Of a stretch of 64,000 nucleotides of DNA, positions 400-64,000 are shown in pieces. Positions within the stretch are counted from its first letter, which is position 1. Every line of letters begins with the position of its first letter. Source of the stretch: Kalaharituber pfeilii (lineage: Eukaryota > Ascomycota > Pezizomycetes > Pezizales > Pezizaceae). The notes under the pieces are model-generated. The model made no database searches, had not been told where the DNA came from, and worked only from the letters and a program-made list of their open reading frames with translations. The stretch is taken from positions 372,001-436,000 of the forward strand of contig WHUZ01000024.1 of the NCBI GenBank assembly GCA_015179045.1, given 5' to 3'. Position numbers and translations under genes: made by a program.

Positions 400-1265
400 C
401 GGACGGGGTGGTGCGACGGCGTCCGAGAATCTGCTGGCGGGATCGCCGGAGTGGTGGCTGGGGTTCCGGACGTTGGAATGGCTACTCTAGCGCTGCTGGA
501 GTCGGGGGGATGTGATCGGAGGTAATTTGCTTAAGCGACATGTACCTGCAGTTGCTAGAGATAGGGTTGAATTGACAGGTGGTGGGGAGGGGAGGGGAGA
601 GGCTGTCGAGCTGCTGACGGAAGGGTCAATTTTACTATTGTTTTGATGCTATTTGAGAGGCTGTCGGAGGGGGAGCCGGAGGAGGGTAAGAGGGTGGGTA
701 GGACAAGCGGTGAGAGAAGCTGTCAGAGCGGTTAAGAGGTCCGGGGACCGCAGAAGTGCTCCGCCGGAGGTGCCGCTGAAGAGAGTATGTGGCTGCTGGA
801 GGTGTTTTTCTTTTTTTTTTTTTTTTTAATATCATTACTCGCGTGCCGCCCTATGGGCTATGGCGAGGTAAGAGGTAGGAGGCGGTGCAGCGGGTGGTGG
901 GTTGGTGCGATGCGGCGGTGAGATACGACATTGAATACCAGAGTGCGATAGGATAGGGGATGCGACTTGGGGGAACATATGGAGCTTGGGGAGAGGTGAC
1001 CTACAGCTTGGCGAAGTGGAAACGCCGTTGCTGCAGGCAACAACATACGCCATAGAGGGGTATAGAATTGTGGGCCCCGGCGCGGGGAAGAGTGTTGTCA
1101 AGCATTTTGAAAGATGGACTGTAACCCTCCAGTTCAAAACTGATATCAACATCAAGTTCCAACTGGGATAAATTTTTTCTGCTTTTCGCTTTCAATCTAT
1201 TTTCATTTTTATTTTTGTATCATTAACGCAATCCCACCGTTCTGGTTTACAGTACGTATATGCAT
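400..1265. repeat. Dispersed 0.87-kb repeat, copy 1
   Basis: This stretch aligns along its length with 14610-15485. Shared blocks include TCCGAGAATCTGCTGG, GGCTGCTGGAGGTG, ATAGAGGGGTATAGAATTG and the T-rich end CTTTCAATYTATTTTYATTTTTATTT. No coding capacity or terminal repeat is recognised and only short shadow reading frames exist. It may be the internal part of an unknown non-autonomous element or a segmental duplication. Copy 1 carries a retroposon (805-867) that copy 2 lacks. Confidence 0.7.
805..867 (-). mobile_element. Family-1 hairpin-poly(A) micro-retroposon
   Basis: Read on the minus strand this is CTCGCCATAGCCC-ATA-GGGCGGCACGCGAGTAATGATATT followed by about 24 A's. It interrupts repeat copy 1 exactly where copy 2 reads GGAGGTGGGGAGCGG without a break near 15037, so copy 2 is an empty site. 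Only a short duplication (about 4-5 bp, GAGGT) can be seen. Confidence 0.8.
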
Positions 1266-1430
1266 GTTGTAACTGGTACTTTGTTAACTGCTTAGGCAAC
1301 AGACTTAGGCAGAATAGCCTCATGCCAAGACCTGCTGGCTACTAGAAGTAGGCGAAAGGCAAGATTAGAGTGAAGGCGAAATATGACTAAGCAATTTTGC
1401 TAGGTAGGAAGTACGGAGTAGATTACGGAG

Positions 1431-1490
1431 TTTTTTTTTTTTTTTTTTTTTGTCACGTGACCCCGCATACGGCTGTTCGCCATGGCAGGG
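1431..1490 (-). mobile_element. Family-2 hairpin-poly(A) micro-retroposon
   Basis: On the minus strand it reads CCCTGCCATGGCGAACAG, then CCGTATGCGGGGTCACGTGAC and poly(A). The flanks (ATTACGGAG and TTTACGGCAG) look like a decayed TSD. It has the same 5' start as the other short family-2 copies. Confidence 0.75.
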
Positions 1491-1944
1491 CCGGTTTACG
1501 GCAGCGATTGACAGGACATGATCATATACTATCTCAACTATATGAAGCCCTTAAGGGCGAACCAAGTGTAACGATTTTGACATCCCATTGGCGTGATTTA
1601 ATATCGCAATGACAGGACTTAGTATTGCGGGCCACCGGGATATTGCGAACTTCTGATGCCGTACTAGTATTGCGTCAAAGGGAAGAAAAAAGGCTATGAG
1701 TGCAAAGGACCTAGTCTTGTAACAAGACGCTGATTACAAATGACCCTCAGGTGGGCTCAAAACGGGGCTGGAACGTGGGGAGTGCGGTAAACTATCCTCC
1801 GCACATTTTCTAGGCCTATTTGCTGCGTATAAGAATCACCCATTTGGTACAGTATATACCAATCCTATGTCCGTACCAGACACATTTGGAGTCACCATAT
1901 GTCAATGATCCTAGCCTGAGGTCTTGTTGATCTCAATGTGAACC

Positions 1945-1999
1945 TCGCCATAGCCCATAGGGCGGCACGCGAGTAATGATATTAAAAAAAAAAAAAAAA
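1945..1999 (+). mobile_element. Family-1 hairpin-poly(A) micro-retroposon, TSD 16 bp
   Basis: A 55-bp insert: TCGCCATAGCCCATAGGGCGGC, CACGCGAGTAATGATATT and A(n). It is flanked by GATCTCAATGTGAACC (1929-1944) and GATCTCAATGGGAACC (2000-2015), a 16-bp TSD with one mismatch. This is a textbook target-primed insertion, with only the last 40 nt of the parent LINE present. Confidence 0.9.
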
Positions 2000-2070
2000 G
2001 ATCTCAATGGGAACCCAGTTGCGTCGTTCTGGAAAATGTGAGATGTTTGGTGACAATCAGGCTAAGATGT

Positions 2071-2150
2071 ACTCGCTGGTTTAAAAAGTATTGGAACGGC
2101 TGACTTGCGCATAATGAGTCAGCCGTTCCAATACTTTTAAATGAGCGAGT
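2071..2150. repeat. Long near-perfect inverted repeat (hairpin)
   Basis: The arms 2071-2104 and 2118-2150 are reverse complements with only a few mismatches. The inner 21 bp (AAAAGTATTGGAACGGCTGAC) are perfect, and the loop is 13 nt. It could be a collapsed MITE, a cruciform or a small-RNA precursor. No TSD is evident. Confidence 0.85.
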
Positions 2151-3110
2151 AGTGGATGGGCACTATTATACAGTGCATCGGCAAAAGTCTTTGGGACTAT
2201 GCAGTGTGAAAGAACAGCAAAGACGTGCATTTGAGCGGCCCTCCTTGCATATCTTTTTTCAATACTGCTCGAAAATTCACTAGACATATCAATACAGTAG
2301 CTAAAAATTGCAAAAAAGTAATAGACCACATGAGTGGGCGTCACAGAATCTAAATCCTTGCTTGGAATTCAAAAGGAGTTCTTTTGGCTGAGTTGTTGTG
2401 TTTTCTCAAGGGGAGTCCTCTTGAATGCATGCTCGTGACTTCAAGGCTTGGCAAACCGCTTTTCCTTACACTAGTACTGCATAGTCCTTGCCTATGCACT
2501 GTATATAAAGCAGACATCTCTGCTTATGTATACGCACAGGAATACTGGGCTATTATACAGTGTAAAATCATTGTGGAGACATTCTTCAACTATAAAATTG
2601 ACACACATACAGTATGTTCTGGGTGGCTCTGATTCATTCCTCTCGCGAATTGGATGAGATTCACGAGCAGCCCGTTCCTCTCATGAATTGAGCAGTCCGC
2701 TCACGAATTACCAGTGTTAGTGTAGTCGGTTTCTGGTTACGAGACTCGTATTAGTGATTAAAATTGCTATTATTTCCTTTCTTCAGCCACCAGGTTTGTA
2801 TGTCTTGGCTCAACAACTATGATGCTTGTGTAAACCAGCACAGCCGCATTTGCTATGAGCCAACTACAAATATAGATGGTTATATATATAAGCTTGCCAC
2901 TACTAGTTCCTACATAACAGGGTGATGATGTTGCGGGCGCAGCAGGGAGCGACAGGGAGAACGGGGACCTAGACTATTAATTTCGCCGTAATACATCTTC
3001 TAGGTAATGTTACTCCTTGTAGTGGTGAAACGAGAAGGAAAAATCAATACTACCAGTCCATTACAAATTCAATGTTCACCACTACCTTCCGAGCTATACA
3101 ACTGCCTGTT
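2151..3110. other. Non-coding, no recognised feature
   Basis: AT-rich DNA with no credible gene. Clusters of TCGCGAATT / CTCACGAATT words at 2640-2720 resemble the tips of inverted-repeat transposons seen at 44.6 and 45.6 kb, but no matching end was found. Confidence 0.5.
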
Positions 3111-3122
3111 AAGTCCACCAGT

Positions 3123-3182
3123 GGTCCCTGTCATAGCTAGTTGCCTGTAAGAGAGGCTACGTGACTCAAACAAAAAAAAAAA
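3123..3182 (+). mobile_element. Family-2 hairpin-poly(A) micro-retroposon, TSD 12 bp
   Basis: Insert GGTCCCTGTCATAGCTAGTT, then GCCTGTAAGAGAGGCTACGTGACTC and A(n), between perfect 12-bp duplications AAGTCCACCAGT (3111-3122 and 3183-3194). It is a diverged family-2 tail; compare 57030-57084, which ends the 2.1-kb LINE. Confidence 0.85.
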
Positions 3183-3194
3183 AAGTCCACCAGT

Positions 3195-3815: not shown

Positions 3816-3830
3816 TGACTCTACGGCCAT

Positions 3831-5174
3831 TTTTTTTTTTTTTTTTTTTTAATTTCATTACTCGCATGCCGCCCTGTGGGCTATGGCGAGGTTTTATTAA
3901 AAGAAGAATAAACTAACTAAATACATGATGCCCGCGGTTCACATAGTATTGCGGGGGGAGCGGTCAGCAGTCTGAATCATCTCCGTCCTCTTTCAGTCTC
4001 ATACTGGCTCGCCTTGAGCCATCTTCCTCCGAGTCGCACCTTGTCAGTGTCTTGTTTTTCCTCCAAGTAAACCACTATGGAGCTTGTCTTTTTTCCCTCT
4101 CCGATTAGGATGTCTTTTTTCCTTAACCATCGGATCCCAACGATCTTTTTCATGTCTTTATTGTCCTCAGCCAGCCATCTCCTGACGTTGCCTAATTCCC
4201 TTCTCAAGGCGATGCCGTGGATGACTATGCCGGTTTTGGTGGGAGGATCTGGTCTTGCCGAGGGTTTTTTGGTGGCGGTTGGTGGGGGGCTTCGGGGTTG
4301 TGGCGGGGTCGGGGCGGCTGGGGCTGGTGTCGGAGCCGGAGCCGGGGATTGTCTTTTGACCGGGGGAGGGGGTGTCGTCTTCCGTGCTTTTGTCTTCTTC
4401 CTCTTTGCCTTTTCCCTGGTCGGTGGTGGTGTAACGGGCCCCAGGGTGGAGGTTGGTGCCTCCGAGTGTATGGTGTGGATGGGGCTGAGTGTCTGTGGCT
4501 GTGGTGGCGGCGCCAGTGGCTCCGTGTCTACGTTTGTGATGGGGCTGAGCCCCAGCGGCTGTGTCGGCGGAGGCGTCGGCGCCGTATCCACGGTCGTGAT
4601 GGGGCTGAGCCCCATTGGCGTTGGTGGCGGTGCCGGTGCCGGTTCAAATGGCGGTGGTGGCAGCGTGGGCAATGGTGGCGGGGGAAGACGGATTTCTGGC
4701 CACAAGTCTTGGCCCCATACGATCTCTATGATCGCTCCTGGTGTTGGCTCGAGGGATGCCCCGGCACCTTGTGTCGCATGTCTCCAGAGCGACCTGGCTA
4801 TGTCTTTCTCCCAGTCGTAGCCTTTGATGTATAGTTCAATAGACAGGTCCGTCCGCCAGTCTCTCGCCGGGGCGAGAGGGGGGGGGGCTTCTCGTCGTGG
4901 AGGAGGAGGAGGATTTCCTCGGTTGCGCCCTTTTGGAGGCATTCTATTGGTGCTTGGCACAGTGTTGATGTACTGGCAACGGCGGTGGTGAGCTGAGGAT
5001 TCCTCAGAATTTCGCCCCTCGGGGGAAATTTGCAGTGTCGGGTTTTTGGGAATAAAAATCGGATCAAAAGACTCAGCTTGCTGAGAGCTTTCGATCTATG
5101 TGGTTTTCGCTCGGGGGGACGTTGTGGTTGTGGAGTCGCTTCCAAACGCTCGTCCTGTGGTGGTTGTTGAAAGA
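3831..5174 (-). mobile_element. ORF1-only (HAL1-like) family-1 LINE derivative
   Basis: A complete 1.34-kb insert bounded by a 16-bp TSD, TGACTCTACGGCCATT (3816-3831 and 5175-5190). On the minus strand it has about 0.2 kb of 5' leader, one 327-codon ORF1 (4960-3977), about 0.1 kb of 3' UTR and the family-1 tail (GCCATAGCCCACAGGGCGGC, GAGTAATGAAATT, poly A). The endonuclease-RT-RNase H ORF2 is wholly absent, so mobilisation must be in trans. Because both ends are present with an intact TSD, the structure is an inserted unit and not later damage. This is the plan of HAL1 in mammals. Confidence 0.85.
3977..4960 (-). CDS. LINE ORF1-type protein, proline-rich, with RNA-binding-like C-terminus
   Basis: The 327-aa frame starts MPSTNRMPPKG at ATG 4960. 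Residues about 1-100 hold a short conserved head; about 100-230 are low-complexity Pro/Ala with repeated LSPITT(V/N)D(T)-type units; a basic KAKRKKTKARK patch follows. The last 85 residues (IVIHGIALRRELGNVRRWL ... VRLGGRWLKASQYE) resemble the C-terminal RNA-binding fold of fungal Tad-clade LINE ORF1/Gag proteins. No CCHC knuckle remains before the stop. The protein should bind its own RNA and help assemble the retroposition particle. The unbroken frame suggests recent origin or selection. The Gag assignment rests on recalled family resemblance. Confidence 0.7.
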   Translation of the reverse strand: MPSTNRMPPKGRNRGNPPPPPRREAPPPLAPARDWRTDLSIELYIKGYDWEKDIARSLWRHATQGAGASLEPTPGAIIEIVWGQDLWPEIRLPPPPLPTLPPPPFEPAPAPPPTPMGLSPITTVDTAPTPPPTQPLGLSPITNVDTEPLAPPPQPQTLSPIHTIHSEAPTSTLGPVTPPPTREKAKRKKTKARKTTPPPPVKRQSPAPAPTPAPAAPTPPQPRSPPPTATKKPSARPDPPTKTGIVIHGIALRRELGNVRRWLAEDNKDMKKIVGIRWLRKKDILIGEGKKTSSIVVYLEEKQDTDKVRLGGRWLKASQYETERGRR

Positions 5175-5227
5175 TGACTCTACGGCCATTGGTACCATGA
5201 GCCTGTACCATACATGCGAGGTTGCAG

Positions 5228-5271
5228 GCGATTAATGATATTAAAAAAAAAAAAGAAAAAAAAAAAAAAAA
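5228..5271 (+). mobile_element. Extremely truncated family-1 insert (about 15 nt + A), TSD 14 bp
   Basis: Only GCGATTAATGATATT of the LINE tail is present, followed by about 29 A's with one G. It sits between ATGCGAGGTTGCAG (5214-5227) and ATGCGAGGTTACAG (5272-5285). Even the hairpin was not copied. Confidence 0.85.
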
Positions 5272-5644
5272 ATGCGAGGTTACAGTACGCGTTATCCCTT
5301 TCAAAACAAGAAACATGATAGATGGCTGAAGAGCAGCAAAGTCAATAACACTGTGTCAATGTTCCACTGTTGTAGAAAATTTCTCACCTACGAGCCGAAA
5401 AATGTTTTATTCGCGACAGGACTAGTCCTCTTGTGAACGCCCCGGAGCTCTCGCGAACTCAGTCCCCTCACGAGTGGACCGGATTCGCAAGCCGACCAGA
5501 ATAGTACACCCTTTATTGTCTATCCTCTAACCGGCCTGTGGAGCTATGTTGCGTGGATATTTCCTTTCCGAATAAGGAGACTTGGGCTGATCAGCTCCAT
5601 AGCATGATACTGACTTCTATCGGGGAGGATATGTACCTCACTAT

Positions 5645-5718
5645 CGCCCTGCCATGGCGAACAGCTGCAAGCGCGGTTACGGGATATTATTAAAAAAAAA
5701 AAAAAAGAAAAAAAAAAA
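5645..5718 (+). mobile_element. Family-2 micro-retroposon inside the pogo left TIR
   Basis: GCCCTGCCATGGCGAACAGC, TGCAAGCGCGGTTACGGGATATTATT and a 28-nt A tract. It begins at the canonical family-2 5' point. Clear TSDs are not visible, so the host insertion is probably old or was rearranged together with the surrounding 190 bp. Confidence 0.7.
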
Positions 5719-5895: not shown

Positions 5896-7341
5896 ATGGT
5901 GAAGTCAAAGTCGAAGTTTAAGGACCCGGAGTCAGATATGAATAGAGCAATTGATTTTGCTCGCAAAAATCCAGATGTGAAAAGATCCTCAGTTGCGCAT
6001 CAGTTCGGAGTGAATCAAGTGACCTTACGGCGAAGACTTAATGGTACACAAAAAGCAAGACGCCATGCACATGTAGAGCAACAATTGCTGTCTGCAGGAG
6101 AAGAAAAATCTATTGTTGAGTGGTGTGAAATTATGGCAGATATGGGATTTCCTTGTCATATTCCTATGTTGGAATCCATGGTGATATTGGTACTAAAGTC
6201 ACGAAATGTTTCACGAATTTTTATTGGGCAACAATGGTATCAGCGCTTTTTAGCACGGCATCCAGATATTCAATATCGTTATGTTCAATATTTGGAGCGA
6301 GTTAGAGCATCTAAATCTGCAGATGCTGCAACTCAGGCAGATTTTTATGATAAGCTTGCAAAGTTACCACCCGGCAGTCTTTATCCAGATCGCATCCCAT
6401 CTCGCTGCTTAATTGTTGATGGACATAGTTCGCATATCCATTACAGTGTTGTAGACTATGCATTAAAGAACAATATTCATATGCTATGTCTTCCGCCACA
6501 TTCTACACACCTTATGCAACCGCTTGATGTTGGCTTATTCTCTCCACTTCAGACTGCTTATGATAATCAACTTCGAGATTTGATATACGACAATCCTACC
6601 AAGATTCTCCGCAAACCTGACTTCTGGGTTCTCCTTAGTGCTGCACGGAAGCTTACCTATACTAAAGAGAACATTATTTCATCTTGGGAGGCAAGTGGTT
6701 GTTTTCCTGTCAATACTGATAGGATTACTACCGAACAGTTCTTATCTGAGGTGCAACCTTCCCCAGAAATACCGCCATCACCTCAACAACTCAAAACTCT
6801 CCATCAACAAGTCGGGGCAACCTTAAATACACCTACTCAGCTTCAGTTGCTGGATCAATATCACGAATTTGCTGAGCAGAAACTCCAGAAGTACCGGACT
6901 ATTGAGCCTAACAACAAAGTGCTACAAAACTTCCGACATGGCAAAGTCTCAGAACCCACCTCACTCAGAGTCATTAATGGAGGCAGAGTGTTAGATCGCG
7001 ACTATGTAATCAAGGAGCAGGCTCGAATTGCTGAAGTTCAGAAGAAGGAAGAAGAGAAGGCTGCACGCAAACAAGCAAGAGAACTTGCAAAGGCACAAAA
7101 ACTTATCAGCAACTCTACTATCACTAGCCAAGCTACACTTACCACTTCTGGGACTGCCACTCAACATCCAGTTGGATCACCGGTATGGCATATTGAAGTT
7201 GGGTACCTTGCTCCAGCAGAACAATACCAGATGTATCGAGAACTTCAATTTTTCCAGTACACAATAGGTACAAAATCTCCATTCCATAGTACCCCTATCT
7301 CTTATTTATATTGCCTTGTCATTCCTATGCCCTTTAACTAA
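5896..7341 (+). pseudogene. pogo/CENP-B-type transposase with in-frame loss of part of the DDE domain
   Basis: The frame is open for 481 codons from ATG 5896. Residues about 10-55 form a Psq-type helix-turn-helix (RSSVAHQFGVNQVTLRRRL). Residues about 60-125 form the CENP-B/Tc5 helix-turn-helix (WYQRFLARHPDIQYR). The DDE_1 core then begins abnormally: after FYDKLAKLPPGSLYP the chain jumps to RCLIVDGHSSHI (second catalytic Asp) and PPHSTHLMQPLDVGLF (third Asp). Family members normally have about 130-150 residues here, including the first Asp (N-M-D-E-x-G). The deletion keeps the frame. A charged coiled coil (KKEEEKAARKQARELAKAQK) lies near residue 385. DNA binding may survive but strand transfer should not. 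Confidence 0.85.
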
Positions 7342-11346: not shown

Positions 11347-11790
11347 GGAGGCTGAGCCGGCAATGGAGACGGTAAATTGCGTTTATTGGATGGGTTGTGG
11401 CATTTGTAGTTGCTGGGAAGTCAATTTTCACGTTATAGCAAAGAACTGTTGAGCGCACAATAGGCTGTATTTTCTTCATTTGTATTTCTCGACGGTGATA
11501 ATTGCTTAGTCTAGTTTGATTCTTACGTTTTAGGGGTAGTTTCAGCGAGAAGCAGATTTCACAACAGAATATGCCAGTTAAGCCTATCTTGTTAAGAAAT
11601 GTCGTAACATTATAATTACATCCATTGCAGTGCTTCCGTATAATTCATTCCATCCGATTCATCTATCAATCTCGTGCATGTACTTACGGATAAGTAGTGA
11701 GCGGCACGAGCTAGCTCGAGCCGAGCTCGAGGGTGAGCTCGAGCTGGCCTGGCATGAGCTCGAGCCTAGATTGATTATATATATAATATT

Positions 11791-11855
11791 TTTTTTTTTT
11801 TTTTTTTTTTTTTTATTTCATTACTCGCATGCCGCCCTATGGGCTATGGCGAGGG
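11791..11855 (-). mobile_element. Family-1 micro-retroposon in hAT 1, TSD 14 bp
   Basis: Minus strand CCCTCGCCATAGCCCATAGG, GCGGCATGCGAGTAATGAAAT and poly(A). The TSD is the AT-rich ATATATATAATATT (11777-11790, 11856-11869). Confidence 0.85.
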
Positions 11856-12519: not shown

Positions 12520-14041
12520 CTAGTTTCTTGTCCTCAAGATCTTAACCCGGAAATCCCTATCTGCCTGCGGATGTCTGTTATGAAACTCCTTCAAAATTTC
12601 CTCACTTGTTCCAGCCAAGTTCTTATAACCTTCCCATGTTGCTTCCTCATCTGGGTATCCTTCCCACAATACTAAATACTCTACCGGGTGCCCACGTTTC
12701 CTCTTATTTTTTCTGCTTTCAACGATATCCCGAACTACCCAATTGACTTCATCCTCGATTTCTTCTGGGGGGGGTGGAGGGATATGTCGAGTTGGATCTA
12801 GACTTTGCCGATAGGGTTCCAATAAGCTCACATGGAAAACCGGGTGTACTTTCATAGTTGAGGGTAACTCTAGTTTATATGCTCGAGTTCCTATTGCTTT
12901 GGTAATTTTGAAAGGTCCGGCTTTTCGGTGGTCGAGTTTCTTAGAAGGTCGGTGGGATTGCATGTTCTGCTTGCTAACCATGACGAGATCTCCTACTTTG
13001 AGGCTTGGTTGTTCAAGTCTTTTAGTATTAGACCATCGAGTCATCTTGATTCTAGCTTTTTAATTTTTTTTTTTTTTTAAATCACATAACCCCGCTTGTA
13101 GCACGTGGCCATGGCAGGGTGATTCTAGCTTTTTGAATGTTCTCCCTAAGTCGTTTCCAGGTTCCTTCCCAGACTTTCTCTAGAAGTTCGCTGGCAGGGT
13201 TCTGGAATTCGACCTTCCTTAATGGTTCCCAGGACTGGCGAGGTTCAAACCCAAAGTTGGCTTCGAAAGGGGACATGCCTGTTGTTTCAGAGGAGGAGGA
13301 GTTATACGCAAACTCTGCCATAGGCAAAAGGTCTTCCCAATCGTCCTGCTTCCAAGAACAATAGTGTCGTAGATATTGTTCAAGGGTTTGGTTTGTTCGC
13401 TCTGTTTGCCCATCGGTTTCAGGGTGGAAGGCAGTCGATAGCTTTGTCGTAATGCCTAATAGATCCATTAGTGCTTGCCAGAAATGTGAGGTTACCTTTG
13501 AGTCTCGGTCCGAGATGATGTCTTCCGGAAGTCCATGATACTTCCAATAGAATCTCAGAAAGGCTTGGGCAAGGTCTTTAGCGGTAGTGTTAGTGGGGAG
13601 AGGGATGAAATGGGCCATTTTGGTAAATCGGTCAACGATTACCCAAATGATGGTGCAGCCATTAGACTCAGGAAGTTCGGTGATCCAATCCATCGAGATT
13701 GCTGACCAGGGACGGTAAGGTACTTCTAATGGTTCTAGAAGTCCGTATTTTCGGTGTCTGCTTGGTTTGTCCCTTTGGCATGTATCACAAGAGCGTACAT
13801 AATCCTGTACGTCTTGCTCGATGTTAACCCAGTGATAGTTAGCCTTAATTCGGTCCAAAGTCTTATGAATGCCGAAATGTCCAGCGATTTTACTATCATG
13901 GTTATCTCGAAGGATTCTGTTTTTAATTTCCTTATTGTCTGGGATGAACCACCGGTGTTTCCAGAGGAGGAGGTTGTCTTCAACCGTAAAGTTCTTATCC
14001 ACTAGTTGACTCCCTTCCTTGACTGCTTCTCGGGTTTTCAC
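12520..14041 (-). pseudogene. Chromovirus integrase plus chromodomain, split by a retroposon
   Basis: The upstream frame (14041-13082) carries the integrase zinc domain (HFGIHKTLDRIKANYHW ... CDTCQRDK). It also carries the DDE core: DWITELPES with the first Asp, IISDRDSKV with the second, HPETDGQTERTNQTLEQYLR with the Glu. A family-2 insert at 13062-13120 breaks the frame. It resumes at 13044 with a GPF/Y-like region (KAGPFKITKAIGTRAYKLELP, VHPVFHVSLLEPY). A C-terminal chromodomain follows (EYLVLWEGYPDEEATWE, including the aromatic cage region). Chromodomains of this group steer integration to marked chromatin. The gene starts mid-polyprotein and cannot be active. Confidence 0.9.
13062..13120 (-). 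mobile_element. Family-2 micro-retroposon splitting the integrase gene, TSD 14 bp
   Basis: Minus strand ACCCTGCCATGGCCACGTGC, TACAAGCGGGGTTATGTGATTT and A(n), between two copies of GATTCTAGCTTTTT (13048-13061, 13121-13134). Removing it restores continuity of the polyprotein, which dates it after the LTR element. Confidence 0.9.
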
Positions 14042-14280: not shown

Positions 14281-14370
14281 CCCTGGCATAGGCTTGTAGC
14301 CTGTATGCGGGGTTATATGATCAAAAATAAATAAATAAATAAATAAATAAAAAATAAAATAAAAAAAATA
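14281..14370 (+). mobile_element. Family-2 micro-retroposon with (AAAT)n tail
   Basis: CCCCTGGCATAGGCTTGTAG, CCTGTATGCGGGGTTATATGATC, then about 50 bp of AAAT repeats grading into A/T. The flanks ACATCTGGT and GCACCTGGT suggest a 9-10 bp decayed TSD. Its hairpin AGGCT-TGT-AGCCT is perfect. Confidence 0.75.
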
Positions 14371-14609
14371 AGCACCTGGTCCACCGTGCGTACAATGATG
14401 GATAGCTCTACCGATTAGTTAATTGCGCCCAGTAACGCGTGCTACTGGGATATTGAATTAATTACTTTCTGGATGTCACAACAAAACATTCAGTGACAAC
14501 CACTTCGACAGGACGAGCTCCTGGAAGCCACTTCGCAACCACAATGTCCCTTCCAGCGAAACCTACATAGATTGAAAGCACCCAGTGAGCTGAAGGGGTT
14601 GGGCGGGTG

Positions 14610-16837: not shown

Positions 16838-17925
16838 CATTAATCAGCCCTAGAATCTGAACCTGAATCAGACGCTTCTGCGGCTGCTGCCGCGGCTTTG
16901 GCTTGTGAAGCTGGAACTGGCAGAAACTGCTTGCAATCTTCAAAAAGATCAGGTGCGGAGCTGAACAGTTGGGTAACCTGGGTATAAACATCTTGAATGG
17001 GCATCGATTTACGCTGGTATGTTTGAAGAATTTCAAGGAAATTCCTATATATTTCGGGATGCTGCGAAAACCGATCTTTGACATTTTTTTTTTTTTTTTA
17101 TATCTGTACTCGAATGCCGCCCTAAGGGCTATGGCGAGGGAATCTTTGACCTTGTTTAGATAGCTGATGGCGTGGTTGAACTCCGCCGCAGTTTGCCAGT
17201 CTTTCTTGGCTCCATCCCTCCCGGACCACTAGGCCCAAGGCTTGGAGGGCCAGGTCTGCCAGTGCTGTTAGTGGCACCTGCGACATTTGGAGTTGGGTAG
17301 CACCAGCATGAACTTCCGCTGCCACCTGGCGCTCTTCAAATAACCCTTGTTGCAACTGACGGGCAGTAAGGGGTTCGCGCTGTTGCACAGGAGGAGGACC
17401 TCCGGGCCCATACCTCGGATACATTGGATTTCCCCCCATGGACGATTACCTTGTTCATAGGATCTGGGATGTGCCATCCCATCGCGTGTAATCATAGATC
17501 CCAGTGGTGGCCCTTGCCCAATGGTGGCTTGAATGATTCCTTGAGGGGTTATAACATGAATTGTATTTTGTGCATCACCGGAACACTCAATAATATAACC
17601 AGGGGGCAAGAATACGCTGAATCCTCGAATCAGGTCCACATGTCCAGCAAATAAGGTAGAGACACGTTCAATCACCCCTAGTGTATCGATTCTGTGCATG
17701 TATTTGTCAGTTATGAAATAATCAGGCAGAGCGCAATATCATTATAGGAGATGCTATGCAAGCTAAATCAGGTAAAGAGAGACCTACCTCCTCAACGTGA
17801 AATTTGACATTTTGTTAAGAAATCTGGTGTAGACGTTGGATCGTTGACCGAACTGGAGTTTGGTTTGATTTAAATAGGAAAAGCGTCCTTTACACGCAAT
17901 GGTTGTTGGTAAGCAGCTTGTATAC
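16838..17925 (-). pseudogene. Sin3 corepressor fragment, copy A (PAH1-PAH2)
   Basis: Read right to left, a decayed PAH1 first helix (YLNQTKLQFGQRSNVYTRFL) is followed by an intron. The second half of PAH1 ([33 protein letters not shown]) comes next, then a linker ([19 protein letters not shown]). PAH2 is EFNHAISYLNKVKD, then, after a retroposon, DRFSQHPEIYRNFLEILQTY and VTQLFSSAPDLFEDCKQFLP. A stop lies near 16840. Sin3 is the scaffold of the histone deacetylase complex; PAH domains bind repressors. There are frameshifts in the linker near 17440, a retroposon in PAH2, no HDAC-interaction domain, and an 0.8-kb foldback element at the upstream edge. It is therefore a partial duplicated copy; the true gene should be elsewhere. 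Confidence 0.8.
17083..17141 (-). mobile_element. Family-1 micro-retroposon inside Sin3 PAH2, TSD 9 bp
   Basis: Minus strand TCCCTCGCCATAGCCCTTAG, GGCGGCATTCGAGTACAGATAT and poly(A), between ATCTTTGAC copies (17074-17082, 17142-17150). It cuts the PAH2 coding sequence between NKVKD and RFSQHPEIY. Confidence 0.85.
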
Positions 17926-17927: not shown

Positions 17928-18734
17928 AATGAATCCAACAGGCCAGGCCAGGCCAGGCCATGAGGGCCGCCTGGACCGGCCCAGGCGGCCTGAAACAATC
18001 AGGCTAACCGGCTGGTCCAGGCCAGTCAGGCCGGTCCAGACCATTCAGGCCGGTCCAGGCCATTCAGGCTGGCCCAGGCCAATCAGGCCAGTCCAGGCCA
18101 ACCAGGCCATTTAAGTAAATTCAAGCGATTTTAGAACTTAACCCAGGTGAATTAGATTTTAATAGTCCTGGATATTTCCACTATTAGTAATTTGACAGTT
18201 GCGTATTAGGTATCATCATTGAAGAACTGCCCTGCCTTGGCGAGCAGCTGCGCGCGGGGTCACGTGACAAAAACAAAAACAAAAAAAAAAACATTGAAGA
18301 ACTGAGTCCCGTCTGTTGTATTATCTGGGAGGTCCATCATCTCTAAAATATTTCTTAGTATATATACTTGAATATAAAGTGTGATACATACTTGACGAAA
18401 GTCGTAGACCGCTGCTATTTAAAATTCTAGATATTCGGGAGATTCTACTCATTTAAATACTCAAATTAACCTATTAAACGCTGGCCTCAATTCACCTGGA
18501 TAGCTGTGGAGTGATTCATTTAATTGACTTGAAACTGCCTGAATGGCCTGGACCGGCCTGGTTGGCCTGGACCGGCTTGATTGGCCTGGGGCCGGCCTTA
18601 ATGGCCTGGGCCGGCTTGAATGGCCTGGGGCGGCCTGGTTGGCCTGATTCATGTGGGTCAGGCCGGTCCAGGCTGGTCCAGGCGGTTTCAGTCCAATGCA
18701 GATCATGGCCTGGCCTGTTGGATTCATTCGTAGC
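17928..18734. mobile_element. GC-rich foldback element
   Basis: The outer ends are AATGAATCCAACAGGCCAGG and its inverse CCTGGCCTGTTGGATTCATT. The arms of about 180-240 bp (17928-18165, 18482-18734) consist of imperfect tandem GGCCGGTCCAGGCCATTCA-type units, and the inner arm ends CCCAGGTGAATT / AATTCACCTGG also pair. It interrupts the Sin3 copy A sequence. A convincing TSD was not found. The arms are far more GC-rich than the surroundings. Confidence 0.75.
18230..18291 (+). mobile_element. Family-2 micro-retroposon in the foldback loop, TSD 13 bp
   Basis: CCCTGCCTTGGCGAGCAGCT, GCGCGCGGGGTCACGTGAC and an A-rich tail with C interruptions, between perfect CATTGAAGAACTG copies (18217-18229, 18292-18304). 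Confidence 0.9.
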
Positions 18735-26200: not shown

Positions 26201-26595
26201 CGCCATAATTGTATATATAGAGCGCTTTTTTCCATTCCTGTTTTTTTTTTTTTTTTTTCCTAGTTTATGATTGCGGCATGACAACTTTGAATTTCGTCGT
26301 TTCGTGCTTATATTTGGTATTTGCAAGAACAAGACAACCATTACTTACCTGATCACGGTCTAGCGAGTTCTTTTCTTATTTCTTATTTTGCTTTTTTAAT
26401 ATATATTTTCAACATTACGTTTCGCATTATAGAAGTCTCACCCAAGAACTATGGCAAAACCAGGAATTATGCTATCCAATGGCACAGGATGTTGGATTTA
26501 AGCATGCTTTTTACCTCCATTGGTCAAGTAATCCTGCAGACTTCTTTACCCTTTACCCTTCAATACATAGCGAATAGCGACATGCGGGGCTATGT

Positions 26596-26655
26596 TTTTT
26601 TTTTTTTTTTTTTTTATATCATTACTCGCTTGCCACCTGTTAGGCTACGGCGAGG
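26596..26655 (-). mobile_element. Family-1 micro-retroposon with compensatory hairpin, TSD 13 bp
   Basis: Minus strand CCTCGCCGTAGCCTAACAGG, TGGCAAGCGAGTAATGATAT and poly(A), between TGCGGGGCTATGT copies (26583-26595, 26656-26668). The stem CCT/AGG replaces CCC/GGG. Confidence 0.9.
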
Positions 26656-46111: not shown

Positions 46112-46166
46112 ATTTTTTTTTATTTTTTTTTTTTTATTTCATTACTCGCAGACCGCTACGGCGAGA
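46112..46166 (-). mobile_element. Family-1 micro-retroposon with its hairpin tip deleted, TSD 12 bp
   Basis: Minus strand CTCGCCGTAGCGGTCTGCGA, GTAATGAAAT and poly(A), between AAACCCTTGTTG copies (46100-46111, 46167-46178). The apex GCCC-loop-GGGC has been removed, so the copy went through a template lacking it or lost it afterwards. Confidence 0.85.
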
Positions 46167-46330: not shown

Positions 46331-46334
46331 AATC

Positions 46335-46391
46335 GCCATAGCCCATAGGGCGGCAAGCGATTAATGATATAAAAAAAAAAAAAAAAAAAAA
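46335..46391 (+). mobile_element. Family-1 micro-retroposon, TSD 16 bp
   Basis: GCCATAGCCCATAGGGCGGC, AAGCGATTAATGATAT and A(n), between perfect TCCACAAATGCCAATC copies (46319-46334, 46392-46407). The insert starts exactly at the first base of the hairpin. Confidence 0.95.
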
Positions 46392-47846: not shown

Positions 47847-47924
47847 CGCCCTGCGATGGCGAACAGCTGCAAGCGGGGTTACGTGATCTAAAAAAAAAAA
47901 AAAGAAAAAAGAAAAACAAAAAAA
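47847..47924 (+). mobile_element. Family-2 micro-retroposon, TSD 13 bp (decayed)
   Basis: CGCCCTGCGATGGCGAACAG, CTGCAAGCGGGGTTACGTGATCT and an A-rich tail with G/C interruptions, between ACCCAATCATAGT (47834-47846) and ACCCAATTGTAGT (47925-47937). Confidence 0.85.
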
Positions 47925-48545
47925 ACCCAATTGTAGTTATATAGCTGCAAAGTTTCGATTTGCCGCTAAGACTACTTGGTGTGTCATGCAATGCGGTGCA
48001 GGGGGACCTCCGCATCAGAATGTTTATCTGAACGAGGAGCCAAAAACTCTTTCCTTGAATCTCATTAATGTTATACTCTACTTTGTTCATCCTCTGGATA
48101 AAGGGATTGACCACTCACTACATTAGACAGCTCCTTGCCTTGAAGCTTCGTTGAATATAACAATATATATGGCGACTACGCAGAGAAATTTAAGAATATC
48201 CCGTATATCAAACATATTCATTTTGTACAAGGGCGGGGGGCAGTAACATTCCTATATGAAATGAATTCCTCTGTCGGAAATACTATTATCGAGACTCCAC
48301 TGCAAGAGGAGAGACTCGACTTATTACCAATGACGCAAAATAATATGGCTCTTGTGTCCCTCACACCAATAGGCATCCATTGAGGGGAAAATGGACCAAG
48401 ACTGGATGGCTTTGTCATATTACTTCGCTGTGTGAATTCCTGCATGCAAGATATAAGAGGTATTAGGTCCATCATATATGCCAATAAGGAGGAACTCGAT
48501 AAAAGAATACAGAGTGAAGATGTTTTCAGGTATAACATTCATCTT

Positions 48546-52356: not shown

Positions 52357-52414
52357 TTTTTTTCTGTTTTGAGTCACGTAACTCCGCATACAGGCTACCA
52401 GCCCATAGCAGGGT
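52357..52414 (-). mobile_element. Family-2 micro-retroposon, TSD 13 bp
   Basis: Minus strand ACCCTGCTATGGGCTGGTAG, CCTGTATGCGGAGTTACGTGACTC and an A tract, between perfect AGCGCTTCAGCTT copies (52344-52356, 52415-52427). Confidence 0.95.
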
Positions 52415-54929: not shown

Positions 54930-57084
54930 CGGTGGGGCAGTGTGGATTATGGAGGATGTCAAGGGAGGCTTTGGGAACACACGATGGGATATGGTCAAGC
55001 ACCGAGTACAGGGTTCTAAAGCTGAGAAATGGTTACCCTGGTTAGAAACCTTCTTCCGGGAGCGAGAGTTTGAAGTGGAATGGGATGGACAGGTGAGGGG
55101 CAATGGCAGATCGAATGTAGGCGTGCCGCAGGGCTCGCCTTTATCCCCAGTTGTGTTCCTCATATACATGGCACCAATTCTAGAAGAGATGGAAACAAAG
55201 GTAGCTACAACAGTGAGAGACTGTGAAGTGGAGCTGCCCTCATTTGTAGATGATATGAACTGTGTTATTCTGGATTGGGAAGGAGGAAAGGATATGAGGA
55301 GAATTGGGGAGAGAATTGCAGGAGTACTCAGGGAGGTTGCTGAAGCTCACGATCTACCACTGGAGACCTCAAAGGAGGAGGTCCTAGTCATGGGTAAGAA
55401 GGCCAAGAGAAGGGCAGATGTTGAGAGGTGCAAGTGGCTAGGGGTGATTTGTGATAGCACTCTTGATTTCGACCTCCACTGGAAAAGCCGGATCGAGAAA
55501 GCCAGGAAACTCATGGGCGCGCTGTCTGGGCTAGGCAACTCTCAATGGGGTATGAGTCCTATCTCATGGAGAAAGGCTTATACAGGCATGGTAAGGGCAG
55601 TGGCCCTTGGGGGTCCGAAATTGGGTGGAGAGGCCAGAAGCAGTGGAGAGAGGAGTTTGAGAAGTTGCAGTATCAAGCACTCCGCAAATGCACTGGTGCA
55701 GTCCGAGGGGCAGCGAGAGTAAAGGTCGAGGCCATTGCTGGAGTAGAGAGTGTAACGACGATTCTCGATCAAGGCCAAGCAAGATATGCACTAAGATCAG
55801 TGAGGGACCCTACAGGAGTTGGAGATTTATGGCCGGAAAGCTTCACTGGAATGGTAGCCCCAGACCCAGACAGAGAGGGTGAAAGGGGGAGGGACTGGAG
55901 AGACTTTAGCTTGAGTTATGCTACAGACAAAAATGATGGGTTTGAGTCAGTAGCTGGAAAGATTGCCAGCACTCTCGAGGTCAATGAGGAGGAGAGAGTG
56001 TCCTGGGGGCGAGATGTACACCTACCACAGACAGGCATTGAGGTCATTGACCTCAAGTTGTGCAAGGAAGACGCCCCAGCCAAATGGGAAAAGGCCATCA
56101 ATGAGGCAAAGGGTGACTCGGTGGCTATTTTTACAGACGGCAGCCGCAGTGAGGAAGGCGGTGTTGGTGGCGGATGGTGCTGGAGGCAGGTGGTAGCAGG
56201 TGAGTCAGAGGGGTCCCGGTGGGTAGGCACAAAGGCAACTGTGTGGGACGGTGAGGTCTCAGGAATGAGGGGTGCCCTTGAAGCAGTTGATGGCAGTGCA
56301 AAAGTACTACTACTCGCAGACTCTCAGGCAGCTATCAGTGCAGTCCAGAAAGCAGGAAAAACTGGCAAGGCAAGAACCGCAGACCTAGCGCGGGTGATAG
56401 AGCTGATTGCAGAGAGGCGGCGGAGGCTAAGGAAGGCGGATGCAGTGAAGCTGGCATGGGTCAAAGCCCACGTGGGGATAGAAGGCAATGAGAAGGCGGA
56501 TGAGTTGGCCAAAGAGGGGGCCAAGGGCATGAGGTATGATGGGCAGGCCACTGAGGGTGGGCTGCGTCAAGAGTTAGTTCGAAAAAGAAAAGAGGAGAGG
56601 GGGCGTGCAGGGTTTGGGAAGGGCAAATTCGTAAAGTGGGGCAGGAGAGCACTCACAAATTACACATGGCTGCGGACTGGAAAAGGCGGAGCTATGTGGA
56701 GGAGGATGGTCAGTGGCGAGGAGGTACAATGCACATGTGGTGAGGCATGGAGTGCTGAGCATGTGGTGTTCAGATGCACAGAACTGGAGCGGCCCCAGAG
56801 GAAGAACAAAAATGGGGCACATGTCACCTGGCAGTCCTGGGAGGACCTAGAGGAGAAAGGATGGAAGCAAGAAGGCGTGGAAGGTGACTCGGTCGAGTAC
56901 TGGTTTGCCTGCCTCGATCTGGGGTAGCCGGGGACCGGGGGACGGAGGGCACTGGGTGCTCAAGGGTGTATGTAGATTCCGTAGTTAGTTGTCTCAAACT
57001 TGGCCCGGGTATATGGGTCCCTGCCATAGGCTGGTAGCCTGTATGCGGGGTTACGTGATTAAAAAAAAAAAAAAAAAAAAAAAA
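54930..57084 (+). mobile_element. Family-2 LINE, 2.16 kb, TSD 13 bp
   Basis: Between perfect ATACCAGATACAA copies (54917-54929, 57085-57097). It contains the second half of RT, RNase H, the zinc motif and the tail GTCCCTGCCATAGGCTGGTA, GCCTGTATGCGGGGTTACGT and A(n). It is the longest LINE in the window and the youngest layer of the hAT 2 nest. Confidence 0.95.
54940..56927 (+). pseudogene. LINE ORF2: reverse transcriptase C-terminal half and RNase H, one frameshift
   Basis: The first frame (to about 55610) holds RT motif B, GVPQGSPLSPVVFLIYMAPI, and motif C as FVDD (most relatives have F/YADD). The thumb-region WLGVICDSTLDFDLHWKSRI follows. A one-base shift at the TTGGGGG run near 55605 leads to the second frame: EFEKLQYQALRKC, then RNase H with Asp in IFTDGSRSEEG, Glu in WDGEVSGMRGA, Asp in LLADSQAAI, and AWVKAHVGIEGNEKADELAK. 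The RNase H catalytic set is complete. The C-terminal zinc-like CTCGEAWSAEHVVFRC precedes the stop at 56927. RT motifs upstream of B, and the endonuclease, are lost to truncation. Confidence 0.9.
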
Positions 57085-58708
57085 ATACCAGATACAAGTA
57101 GAGATCCCTGGAAACTCCTGTGTGAAGGGTTTGCTACTTCGTGACATCACTGCAGAGCCCCTAACCCCGGTTGCAAGCTCTGCCTCAGCTCCCCCTACAT
57201 GCTCTGCCCCCATTGCGAGCGTAGCGAGCGGGCATTCTCTCGTTTTTTTATATCATTACTCGCATGCCGCAGTGTTTCTCTTGACAGCTCGCTAAAATGC
57301 TTAGCCAGCGCAGGGTTTCATAAACTGTAAATACCTAACATGGTAATAAATTAGAGACTCGGAGCTCATTCTGACCTGCCAATAACTTCTATAAATATCA
57401 AAAGTAGTTCAATTACATAGACCTATATCAAGTCTTTTATGTTTAATATCTCTCAAGGTCTTTAGAAGGTAAGTTGCATATTGAAAGAGTGTATATTAGG
57501 CCTCTATTCTCTCTATCCTCTTGAAATTCTTTTCTCTTTGCTACTACCCAATATCAAGACTTCGAGACTCATACTATGCTTCAAGACCCTTAATCCTCAT
57601 ACTACACTTCAAGATTCTTGTTCCTTATACTACATTAGCAATTTATCAATATGACAACCCATTCTATATCAATTTATAATGCCTTTCTTGCCAACCTAGC
57701 TGGCCAATATTCTTTAATTAAAGATTAGCATACTGTTTTGAACTCTTATGAAAGATGTATGATTTTGCGGCGAAAAATATCAGATAATGAGCACGAAATT
57801 TTATATATGTGTATTGTTTCAAGACTTGGCACGTCAAAAGCTGTACAACAACCACATCCATGTTACTGCACTATTTTCGGAAGTCACATGCATTAGTTCC
57901 ACTTTCGCGTCAGCTAGTAAACGCCACAGAATTAAAGCAACGAATACTATCTGAGATGATGGTTCCAACAAAGCGAGCTAAACCAGAGGGCTTTTCCGAA
58001 ACACGTATTGTGAACTCCTTTGCCGCTTTCTTATCTCAACAAAGTCACCAATCAAACTAGCAGAAAAGGCATCATTTCTAGAGCTCCTCCCCAAAGTTCG
58101 AGCCGGGATGTCGCCAAATCTAGACCACATGGCATGAGAGTATTTAGCACTACCTGCCTCCTCTGTCCCCTCCGAACAGATATTCTCGTAGGTAAGTATT
58201 TCAACATAATACTATCTCTAGCTAAGCTGACAATTTACTACAGGCAGGCGAAGTTCTCAACACACGCCGAAACAGAATGGAAGGTGAGACTATGAGCGCT
58301 ATCATGTGCTACTGAATTTAGCAGATAGCAGTGATAAGAATGAAGCTGTAGAATAGTTTAGATTAGTTATTAATATCATGTAATCAAGGCTCGCTGGCTC
58401 GAGCCCACCTTCTATTTGACGAGCTCGGCTCGAGTCGAGCTCACTTACTCACGAGCTGGCTCGAGCTCACCCTCCAGCTCGGCTCGAGCTAGCTCGTGCC
58501 GCTCACTATTTGCAGGAGCCATTCAGCTATATTTATGAAAGATCAACACGCTTGACTCATAATGTTACATACTCGAGTATTGCCAACACAGTATTGGTAG
58601 CGTTGAGTTGGATGATAATTAACCATGGTGCCCGTTTTGCACCCTTCCCCCACGACCAAATGCAGTCATGTATCACAGAATATATATGGCGCAATGAATG
58701 AAACACTA

Positions 58709-61031: not shown

Positions 61032-61071
<40 letters not shown>
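60351..61071 (+). mobile_element. 5'-truncated family-2 LINE with internally deleted RNase H, TSD 10 bp
   Basis: Between AACTTGTGTA copies (60341-60350, 61072-61081). The frame begins CLDSEAAVMAIQKAGKEGKG and reaches LMWVRQKRG. KAHIGIAGNEKAD is deleted, and the frame shifts to KKGTAKKGREVATGSG and again near 60700 before EVQTGEHLAFRC. The tail is CCCTGCCATGGCTTTGTGCT, ACAAGCGGGGTTATGTGATT and about 38 A's. Confidence 0.9.
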
Positions 61072-61075
<4 letters not shown>

Positions 61076-61200
61076 TGTGTATGCTAGCTATGCGACAGCT
61101 GCAATGGGACTGTGGTAGCAAGGAACTAGTAGTAGTATGTCCGCTATACTGATTTTTCATACCACATGGAGGTACGGAGGTACCTGACGGTCCTTGTGTT

Positions 61201-61465
61201 CTTTTTTTTTTTTTTTAAAAAAAAACCCGTAACCCCGTTTGCAGCGCCAAGCCATGGCAGGGTCCCTGGGCAAGCCCTCCAAGCCCGAGACAGGCTTAAC
61301 AAAGAAAGTTCTCCATACACCTCCCCGTTCCACCCCTCCCTCTCCCCTTCTAGAACCTGGTTCCCCAACCTTCCGGATGGTTCTTCTGGTCTCTGCATCG
61401 GAATGCGAGCTGCTTCCCTATTCCACTCCCTGACCTTCTCCTTCCCACATCTCTCCACCTCTACA
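61201..61465 (-). mobile_element. Short family-2 LINE fragment, 265 bp, TSD 11 bp
   Basis: Between GTCCTTGTGTT copies (61190-61200, 61466-61476). The minus strand has a scrap of ORF2 (GKEKVREWNREAA), UTR and the tail CCCTGCCATGGCTTGGCGCT, GCAAACGGGGTTACGGGTTT and A(n). Confidence 0.85.
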
Positions 61466-61686
61466 GTCCTTGTGTTGGGGCGTTGTTCCAGTCAGTTCTC
61501 GAATAGACCAGGTTATTCAGGAATTCGTCCGTTCACGAAGAGAGAGTAGGTTCGTGAACTGACAAAGATTCTCGGCCAGGCTAAAACATCGCCACCATAG
61601 CGTTCTAAAGCTGACTTCCGCCACATCATTCTCTTAACGTCCTGGCACAGCTAGTTATCCTTGAGACCGCACCACAGTTAAGAATA

Positions 61687-63098: not shown

Positions 63099-63112
63099 AG
63101 TTGGCTCTTAGG

Positions 63113-63175
63113 TTTTTTTTTTTTTTTTTTTTTTTGTCACATGACCCCGCATGCGGCTCTTCGCCATGGCAGGAC
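63113..63175 (-). mobile_element. Family-2 micro-retroposon just after the BTB stop, TSD 10 bp
   Basis: Minus strand GTCCTGCCATGGCGAAGAGC, CGCATGCGGGGTCATGTGAC and poly(A), between GGCTCTTAGG copies (63103-63112, 63176-63185). It lies in the probable 3' UTR of the BTB gene. Confidence 0.9.
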
Positions 63176-63362
63176 GGCTCTTAGGATAATTTTGCGACCT
63201 TAGGGTTTCTGTGGTTTACTGCAACTCCGCACGGGATTTAGAAGGATTTGTGGTTTAAATGAGACTGGAAATGTGTTTGGATGGAGCTGTAGTCTGCATA
63301 ACCAACGATATAACAGGGCAATTGATATGAACGCATAAGCCTCATCTATGTACCCACCTCAT

Positions 63363-63424
63363 TCTGTTTTTTTGTCTTTTTTATATCACGTAACCCCGCT
63401 CGCAGCTGTTCGCCATAGCAGGGC
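63363..63424 (-). mobile_element. Family-2 micro-retroposon, TSD 13 bp (two mismatches)
   Basis: Minus strand GCCCTGCTATGGCGAACAGC, TGCGAGCGGGGTTACGTGATAT and an interrupted A tail, between GTACCCACCTCAT (63350-63362) and GTATCCATCTCAT (63425-63437). Confidence 0.85.
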
Positions 63425-63719
63425 GTATCCATCTCATGCACCAGCGGGTGAAATTGCATGAAGGTCGCTGTTCTGATGGGTCAGATGGGAATGCGCTGAA
63501 TACCTATTTAATTAAGAGGTGATTGGGCATCTGTTTGCATAAGTACAAACTTCCACTCTCGCTATATATGGATACTAGTATACACTTTTCATTTGTTTAT
63601 GAATGCCTTGCGATATTATTACAGTAGCGTTAGTTTTGCTTCTATAATATTCATATCACGTGCAACCTGGGCACCACACAGCGCTTGCGGCGACATAAGT
63701 GCTGCCTTAATTGATTGTG

Positions 63720-63953
63720 GTGTACCAGTGATCGCTGCTACAGTAGCTCAGCAGGAGGCACTTCACCGAGTCCACATGCTTGAGGTAACCGGCGTGCGCC
63801 AGTGCGGTGCAGTTTCCGTCGAATTGGCCGGACCTTCTATCGAGGTCTTGGCCTCGGGAAAGAGCATGTTATTGCATGGCGGCTGTGTTGTCGGCGTTTG
63901 TAGCCCATGTGAGGGGGCGTCATCCCTATATTGTCGCTTACATGCAAGTCTTA
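63720..63953 (-). pseudogene. Ankyrin gene scrap, copy 3
   Basis: The plus-strand order CAGGAGGCACTTCACCGAGT, CCAC ... GTGCGCCAGTGC ... GGGAAAGAGCATG ... GGCGGCTGTGTTGTCGGCGT ... CATGTGAGGGGGCGTCATCC parallels 34365-34550 (ankyrin copy 1) and 49190-49390 (copy 2). Frames are broken. The homology is cut at 63953 by a family-1 retroposon, so more of copy 3 may lie beyond the window. Confidence 0.7.
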
Positions 63954-64000
63954 TTTTTTTTTTTTTTTTTTAATATCATTAATCGCATGCCGCCCTAAGG
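63954..64000 (-). mobile_element. Family-1 retroposon, cut by the window end
   Basis: Poly(T), AATATCATTAATCGCATGCC, GCCCTAAGG: the start of a family-1 tail in minus orientation. Length and TSD cannot be judged. Confidence 0.8.

Follow-up and report, generated by a model that had tools for sequence, protein, structure and literature searches.

Hairpin-Only Retroposons With a Fixed 5′ Start in the Genome of Kalaharituber pfeilii

Results

Short Insertions of Two Hairpin Families

We examined a stretch of 64,000 nucleotides (the window) of the pezizomycete Kalaharituber pfeilii (contig WHUZ01000024.1, positions 372,001 to 436,000, assembly GCA_015179045.1), which contains short insertions made of the 3′ hairpin of a long interspersed nuclear element (LINE) followed by poly(A). 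The insertions belong to two families, family 1 (F1), which begins with CGCCATAG, and family 2 (F2), which begins with CCCTGCC (Table 1). A first-pass annotation of the window had named ten short F2 copies, most of them with a target site duplication (TSD), five longer F2 copies and at least seven F1 copies starting at the hairpin. All ten places carry an F2 or F2-like tail that ends in an A-rich stretch, and the five longer copies were located at 39725, 57020, 59851, 60995, and 61262. A TSD was found for eight of the ten: it is perfect (10–15 bp) at 13062, 18230, and 63113, was read directly at 3123 and 52357 (both too diverged for the standard hairpin fold as isolated sequences), and is imperfect at 14281, 47847, and 63363; at 1431 it is weak and at 5645 it is absent. 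For F1, about six starts at the hairpin base are supported (1946, 11851, 17136, 26652, and 46334, plus the deleted copy at 46154) rather than seven, and no TSD was found for the copy at 865.

Table 1. Hairpin-only copies and related elements in the window (TSD, target site duplication; ORF, open reading frame; UTR, untranslated region; RT, reverse transcriptase).
Position	Strand	Feature	TSD or remark
1431..1491	-	F2 hairpin-only; poly(A) 1431-1451	weak TSD
3123..3184	+	F2-like hairpin-only, diverged	10-bp TSD GTCCACCAGT read directly; fold differs
5646..5718	+	F2 hairpin-only	no clear TSD
13064..13120	-	F2 hairpin-only	perfect TSD, 15 bp
14281..14371	+	F2-like hairpin-only, AAAT-rich tail	imperfect TSD
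18229..18291	+	F2 hairpin-only	perfect TSD, 13 bp
47848..47925	+	F2 hairpin-only	13-bp TSD, 2 mismatches
52357..52414	-	F2-like hairpin-only, diverged	~13-bp TSD read directly
63113..63175	-	F2 hairpin-only	perfect TSD, 10 bp
63363..63424	-	F2 hairpin-only	imperfect TSD, by eye
1945..1999	+	F1 hairpin-only	16-bp TSD, 1 mismatch
11789..11855	-	F1 hairpin-only	AT-only TSD, 14 bp
17084..17141	-	F1 hairpin-only	TSD, 2 mismatches
26595..26655	-	F1 hairpin-only	perfect TSD, 13 bp
46332..46391	+	F1 hairpin-only, AT/GCGAT stem type	perfect TSD, 15 bp
46113..46166	-	F1 hairpin-only, inner stem deleted	read directly
5228..5272	+	F1 copy, apparent start inside hairpin (3′ strand of outer stem)	sequence reading
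3831..5175	-	F1 parent-type element: proline-rich ORF1 (3977-4960), 3′ UTR, F1 hairpin, poly(A); no RT; GACTCTACGGCCAT repeats on flanks	
54940..57085	+	F2-group LINE: RT and RNase H frames, 3′ hairpin at 57020, poly(A)	

The Start at the Hairpin Base Recurs Outside the Window

The genome surveyed comprises 78.0 Mb in 360 contigs. A pattern search identified 2,414 exact F2 hairpins and 2,063 exact F1 hairpins, and the reversed patterns of F1 and F2, used as controls, had no match genome-wide. For a census of F2 the first 100 exact hairpins listed, on contigs C1 and C2, were taken, and all 100 places were confirmed. The F1 sample consisted of the first 63 copies listed minus the one at C1:549732 (n = 62). 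Loci L001-L008 were excluded from every count. In the F2 census a TSD score of at least 7 was accepted at the hairpin base and of at least 9 elsewhere, and the counts given are the scripted ones. Forty-nine of the 100 F2 copies start at the hairpin base and have a TSD, six start 36–39 nt upstream at the base of a second hairpin (H3), 37 extend into the LINE and eight received no scripted class. The TSD is 10–14 bp long in 47 of the 49 hairpin-base copies; three of the 49 have weaker scores of 7–8, and a threshold of 9 throughout leaves 46. Reading by eye of the eight copies without a class assigned L131, L134, and L169 to the hairpin base, L139 and L045 with doubt to the same class, and L041, L132, and L145 to LINE copies that have a deletion or are otherwise changed. 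Two copies scripted as extended (L161 and L162, offsets 32 and 29) read by eye as H3-base copies in which the matched stretch enters the element.

In the F1 sample, 14 copies start 0–5 nt ahead of CGCC, and the remainder are scattered, longer or without a clear TSD; ten further copies reach a TSD score of at least 9 at 15, 33, 52, 53, 59, 77, 85, 108, 113, and 113 nt. Among TSD-supported starts with a score of at least 9, 46 of 57 F2 starts (up to 130 nt) fall within an 8-nt window (p ~1e-45) and 14 of 24 F1 starts within a 6-nt window (p ~2e-13), where both p values assume an even spread of starts over 131 nt. A control in which the left flank of one copy was combined with the right flank of another gave no false TSD at the base (0 of 394 and 0 of 400). 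In agreement with the census, the LINE motif CAGGGR stands directly ahead of only 884 of the 2,414 F2 hairpins. Extrapolated from the shares on contigs C1 and C2, hairpin-only copies with an exact hairpin would number about 1,200 in F2 and about 470 in F1. In an unselected 152 kb (the window and nine loci), the 5′ half of the hairpin is kept in 31 of 36 F1 tails and 21 of 23 F2 tails; of the seven tails that lack it, those at 46154 (a deletion) and at position 223 of L009 (diverged) do not represent starts inside the hairpin.

The fixed start proposed in the first-pass annotation was thus borne out well beyond the window. A smooth distribution of truncations, which the annotation had named as the outcome that would speak against it, is seen in neither sample, as F2 and F1 both show a peak. 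The proposal has to be qualified in that F1 is fuzzier and accompanied by scattered truncations, F2 has a second start at another hairpin, and in a few copies the start apparently lies within the hairpin.

Structure of the LINE 3′ Ends

The 3′ end of F2 is predicted to form three hairpins, H1, H2, and H3. H1 has a predicted 7-bp outer stem, the first base of which is the start base of the hairpin-base copies. H2 ends about 5 nt upstream of that start, and the stem of H3, from AAGCC or GCC, is the site of the second start; in 7 of 24 aligned rows the two outer pairs of this stem do not form. Compensating changes between subfamilies occur in H2 at two pairs, in 6 and 4 of 23 rows. In total, 13 alignment cells have both sides of a pair changed (10 in H2 and 3 in H3) against 3.5 in shuffles, although sliding the structure by +1 still yields 11 such cells, with only 50% of cells paired. 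H1 gave no evidence of covariation; it hardly varies, and most rows were picked by an exact H1. The F1 hairpin consists of a 5-bp outer and a 4-bp inner stem, and one pair of each shows compensating changes (C-G to A-U in 8 and C-G to U-A in 5 of 30 distinct copies). This amounts to 13 cells with both sides changed against 3.6 in shuffles, located in two of the nine pairs, a number of pairs that is not above shuffles. A conserved 3′ stem-loop with compensatory changes, as expected of LINEs of the stringent type, is therefore found in both F1 and F2.

The hairpin cores of the two families are alike (ACCUCGCCAUAG in F1 and RCCCUGCCAUGG in F2), from which we infer common descent of the hairpins. 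The F2 start lies 5 nt ahead of GCCAU and the F1 start lies near the same place, with an offset of 4 as the commonest (6 of 24) within a range of 0–5. Only weak folding is predicted for the 45 nt that precede the F1 hairpin (43 long copies; mean folding energy -2.1 kcal/mol, median z +0.19).

Junction Bases of Hairpin-Base Copies

Junction bases were analyzed in 62 hairpin-base F2 copies, a set that was used for the junctions and not for shares and that includes extra copies from L131-L150 (places without CAGGGR) and from L111-L130 (the GAACAGCTACAA list, with known extended copies skipped). F2 has a sharp boundary, and the base at -1 is a purine in all 62 copies (G in 48 and A in 14), as in the LINE. 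At -2, where the LINE has G, the copies have T (29), C (20), A (7), or G (6), so that a pyrimidine is found in 49 of 62; positions -3 to -13 are 37–58% pyrimidine. In the 22 copies with at least two extra bases, a pyrimidine is present at -2 in 18 and at the last base of the TSD in 11. The pyrimidine thus holds position -2 irrespective of the end of the TSD, and in the cDNA it corresponds to a purine. The RT of R2 is described as adding non-templated bases when the template has been completed (PMC8857657) and as favoring purines in doing so (PMC11789487), and the F2 junction resembles such an untemplated purine added at run-off.

Three other explanations were considered and rejected. A preference of second-strand cleavage does not account for the F2 pyrimidine, which does not track the end of the TSD (in F1 this comparison is ambiguous). 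Microhomology does not explain the fixed start, as the offset is 0 in only 9 of the 49 copies. A new transcription start at -1 is at odds with the preceding LINE base, judged from the sequence only, which is G and not a pyrimidine.

Subfamilies and Probable Source Elements

The share of hairpin-only copies differs with the type of tail. In the F2 census, GTCA tails comprise 32 hairpin-base, 3 H3-base and 1 extended copy and 3 without a scripted class, and GTTA tails 17, 3, 36, and 5, respectively. The base at -1 mostly follows the tail: G in 43 and A in 1 of the GTCA copies, A in 13 and G in 5 of the GTTA copies. In the commonest hairpin-only subfamily, CAGGGR is present in 6 of the 43 copies listed through contig C19, of which three start at H3 (L081, L098, and, by eye, L099); the other three belong to longer LINE copies (L100, L101, and L103). 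For all F2 subfamilies with at least three census copies, extended, extended-like or two-hairpin copies are represented in the genome lists, with greatly differing shares. Since the commoner short-copy subfamilies recur in long or two-hairpin copies and the base at -1 mostly tracks the tail type, LINEs, rather than short master copies, are likely the source of the short copies. A hairpin-only lineage without a LINE parent had been suspected for the CACGC type, as none of the 100 extended copies listed is of this type, and was rejected on 21 extended-like places identified by pattern genome-wide.

Two longer elements of the window carry these tails together with reading frames. The RNase H part of the F2-group LINE frames (55545-56927) matches proteins of K. 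pfeilii, with 94% identity across 82% of the query and 100% identity across 57%, which makes this desert truffle the very likely host. The F1-tailed element of about 1.3 kb at 3831-5175 (minus strand) encodes a proline-rich ORF1-like protein only and no RT. The protein of its ORF (3977-4960) has at least 134 matches in the genome, some in pieces, and the database relatives found are seven K. pfeilii proteins only. On contig C2, four exact F1 hairpins lie 97–124 nt after a frame like this ORF. From its sequence, the element looks like a member of an ORF1-only non-autonomous LINE family, for which HAL1 of mammals is a comparable case.

Discussion

Relation to Known Retroposons

The hairpin-only copies are LINE-mobilized retroposons with a fixed start, since they have an A-rich 3′ tail and TSDs and match LINE 3′ ends of the same genome. 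LINE copies truncated at the 5′ end are described with varied truncation points and lengths of 100 to 1,000 bp (PMC3747384). The copies described here share with them the LINE 3′ end, poly(A), TSDs and lack of a coding part, but differ in that about half of the F2 census has a single start and in a core of about 40 nt; the F2 starts lack the spread of ordinary truncation, and F1 combines a peak with a spread remainder. LINEs of the stringent type with 3′ stem-loops and short interspersed nuclear elements (SINEs) that share their tails are established (PMC3747384). Like the SINEs with a LINE-like tail Mg-SINE (PMC2104539) and AfuSINE2-1a (PMC5063351), the hairpin-only copies are likely mobilized through a LINE-like 3′ end. 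Unlike these two, as far as they are described there, they have no tRNA or 5S head that could be found, and the tail is the entire element. No SINE head (derived from tRNA, 5S, or 7SL, with a pol III promoter) was found: an Rfam scan of the window at gathering thresholds gave no match, and the left flanks of hairpin-base copies are unlike each other. Judged by this apparent lack of a head, they are not SINEs in the strict sense. The statement of the first-pass annotation that the core would be smaller than any SINE holds as a statement of size; it does not amount to proof of a self-propagating SINE, as the subfamilies with at least three copies have extended, extended-like or two-hairpin members.

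R2 SIDEs of Drosophila are described as having a 5′ self-cleaving ribozyme joined to a 3′ end (PMC3414825). The hairpin-only copies resemble them in that they are non-autonomous, begin at a defined place and contain the 3′ part of a LINE that serves for recognition, and differ from that description in having no separate 5′ part and no Rfam match. A self-cleaving ribozyme (such as one like that of hepatitis delta virus) or another known RNA family was rejected as an explanation, as no Rfam match was obtained up to an E value of 5 at five loci with long copies and none in the window. In MINE of Magnaporthe, the RT of the LINE MGL jumps to WEIRD RNA and leaves 230–5461 nt of MGL, with preferred switch sites near predicted hairpins (PMC2104539). 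There too a fungal LINE RT quits its template at preferred, hairpin-associated sites, unlike the present copies, which show no second RNA and end about 40 nt from the tail. In the open-access literature, no description was found of hairpin-only retroposons with a fixed start, of ultra-short SINEs of such a kind, or of Kalaharituber repeats.

Possible Origin of the Fixed Start

The reading that we tentatively prefer, at slightly less than an even chance, is that the short insertions of hairpin and poly(A) arise when the RT copies to its end a short RNA whose fixed 5′ end lies beside the hairpin. LINE transcripts end in a conserved hairpin, with compensatory changes in F1 and in H2 of F2, and by analogy with stringent-type LINEs this 3′ hairpin is probably held by the LINE protein. 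The RNA upstream would be cut or trimmed to the hairpin base or, less often, to the 5′ base of H3, as the two fixed starts suggest. The RT would then prime on the poly(A), run off the 5′ end of the RNA and add one untemplated purine, seen as the F2 pyrimidine, before the copy is joined, leaving a TSD that is mostly 10–14 bp long. The first-pass annotation had left two possibilities, a regular stop of reverse transcription just past the hairpin or a discrete RNA of about 45 nt. The fixed start stands under both, and the F2 junctions lean to the discrete RNA, since no more than 6 of 62 copies keep the G that the template has beyond the start. A true RNA 5′ end, with run-off from it, is favored because the fixed untemplated pyrimidine at -2 fits purine addition of the R2 kind, and a discrete RNA beginning at the hairpin is preferred to a stop in mid-template at about even odds. 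A bolder version, which we consider doubtful, is that a specific cut about 5 nt ahead of GCCAU, common to the two LINE groups, frees a hairpin RNA of about 40 nt carrying poly(A), and that this RNA is what is mobilized. It would be the smallest retroposon known and would outnumber its own extended copies, with the untemplated purine marking run-off from an uncapped RNA.

Several observations weigh against a trimmed template. Apparent starts inside the hairpin (5223 and 57268 in the window, L016 4063, L012 6299, and L108) suggest that the RT sometimes stops there. The very short insertions at L012 and L108 sit within or directly after the poly(A) of another element. The dependence of the hairpin-only share on subfamily does not follow from a model of trimmed RNA. 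Non-templated addition is borrowed from R2, which belongs to a different LINE group, and the pyrimidine is seen in hairpin-base copies, with truncations in mid-LINE too few for a contrast. In F1, position -5 is a pyrimidine in 18 of 24 copies (p 0.02), but so is the last base of the TSD (18 of 24), and the two cannot be told apart; long F1 copies mostly have A at -5 (42 of 66). The F1 boundary is not sharp, the start varying over 0–5 nt, and its junctions neither add to nor subtract from the argument for run-off, so that the support that F1 had seemed to give does not stand, which makes run-off slightly less probable. Upstream of H3, the mean folding energy over 45 nt is -6.5 kcal/mol (z +0.18, 35 copies), and the stretch from H3 to H2 has a z of only -0.18 at -11.7 kcal/mol; a z near zero is no proof of a lack of structure, and z alone is a weak guide to it.

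A serious rival, possible though somewhat less probable than run-off from a short RNA, is abortive target-primed reverse transcription, in which the anchor on the 3′ hairpin is lost once the last hairpin base has been copied and the enzyme leaves an intact LINE RNA. It agrees with a start at or adjoining the first paired base, with two start sites at the bases of two stems, with the few copies that apparently stop within the hairpin and with F1 starts spread across 6 nt. It accounts less well for the untemplated F2 pyrimidine at a fixed place, which is what run-off predicts, and for F2 copies with GTCA tails, which start at -1 though -2 is predicted to be paired (0.98, four long copies). Among the 37 extended F2 copies, moreover, only weak candidates (69 and 87 nt) end between H3 and 130 nt. 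Pausing of the RT before a strong hairpin just upstream, as proposed for the template switches of MGL, would be in keeping with the position of H2 relative to the F2 start, with MGL chimeras that are said to switch beside predicted hairpins (PMC2104539) and with the 45 nt upstream of H3, which are not free of structure. Yet the F1 peak is present despite the weak fold upstream of F1, on which pausing was rejected as a general cause, and the GCC*A/U switch motif given in PMC2104539 is absent by eye from these junctions; we regard this explanation as improbable.

An independent family of ultra-short SINEs, in which short copies are transcribed and seed new short copies, appears equally improbable. 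The GAACAGCTACAA subfamily, with 18 hairpin-base, 2 H3-base and no extended copies and 1 without a scripted class in the census, would suit it, but longer LINE copies of GAACAGCTACAA exist elsewhere (L100, L101, and L103), GAACAGCTGCAT has one longer copy and GAACAGCTGCAC has 21 extended-like places by pattern. That the base at -1 mostly tracks the LINE tail type (G in 43 of 44 GTCA copies), that there is no head and that Rfam recognizes no known RNA in the window also argue against it. Ordinary random 5′ truncation, the fixed start then being produced by the selection of copies, is very improbable. The F1 starts scattered from 15 to 113 nt are of the kind it predicts, but the peak persists among copies listed by the hairpin alone, only a minority of F2 hairpins (884 of 2,414) follow CAGGGR directly, and the F2 census refutes it.

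To our knowledge, it is an open question whether short LINE copies originate from decay of the template or from the enzyme falling off. Whichever applies here, the hairpin-only copies provide an unusually clean natural record of the end points of LINE reverse transcription, with F2 ends fixed to one base and, by estimate, more than 1,000 copies in which they can be read. Should a trimmed RNA have served as template, LINEs could mobilize as little as a hairpin with its tail. Such a unit would rank with the smallest mobile units known and would bear on the beginnings of SINEs.

Other Features of the Window

A frame read from its protein as an integrase-like part of a long terminal repeat retrotransposon (13064-14041, minus strand) runs into the F2 copy at 13064. 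A transposase frame at 5896-7341 (plus strand) is Tc5-like (DDE_1, HTH_Tnp_Tc5) and presumably also pogo-like. Ankyrin-repeat frames, apparently broken, lie at 34111-36758 and 48947-50832, with a Pfam match at 35742-36758 and the others read by eye. The frame at 42823-43794 (minus strand) matches interferon-inducible GTPase (IIGP, E 1.7e-21), which we found surprising in a fungus.

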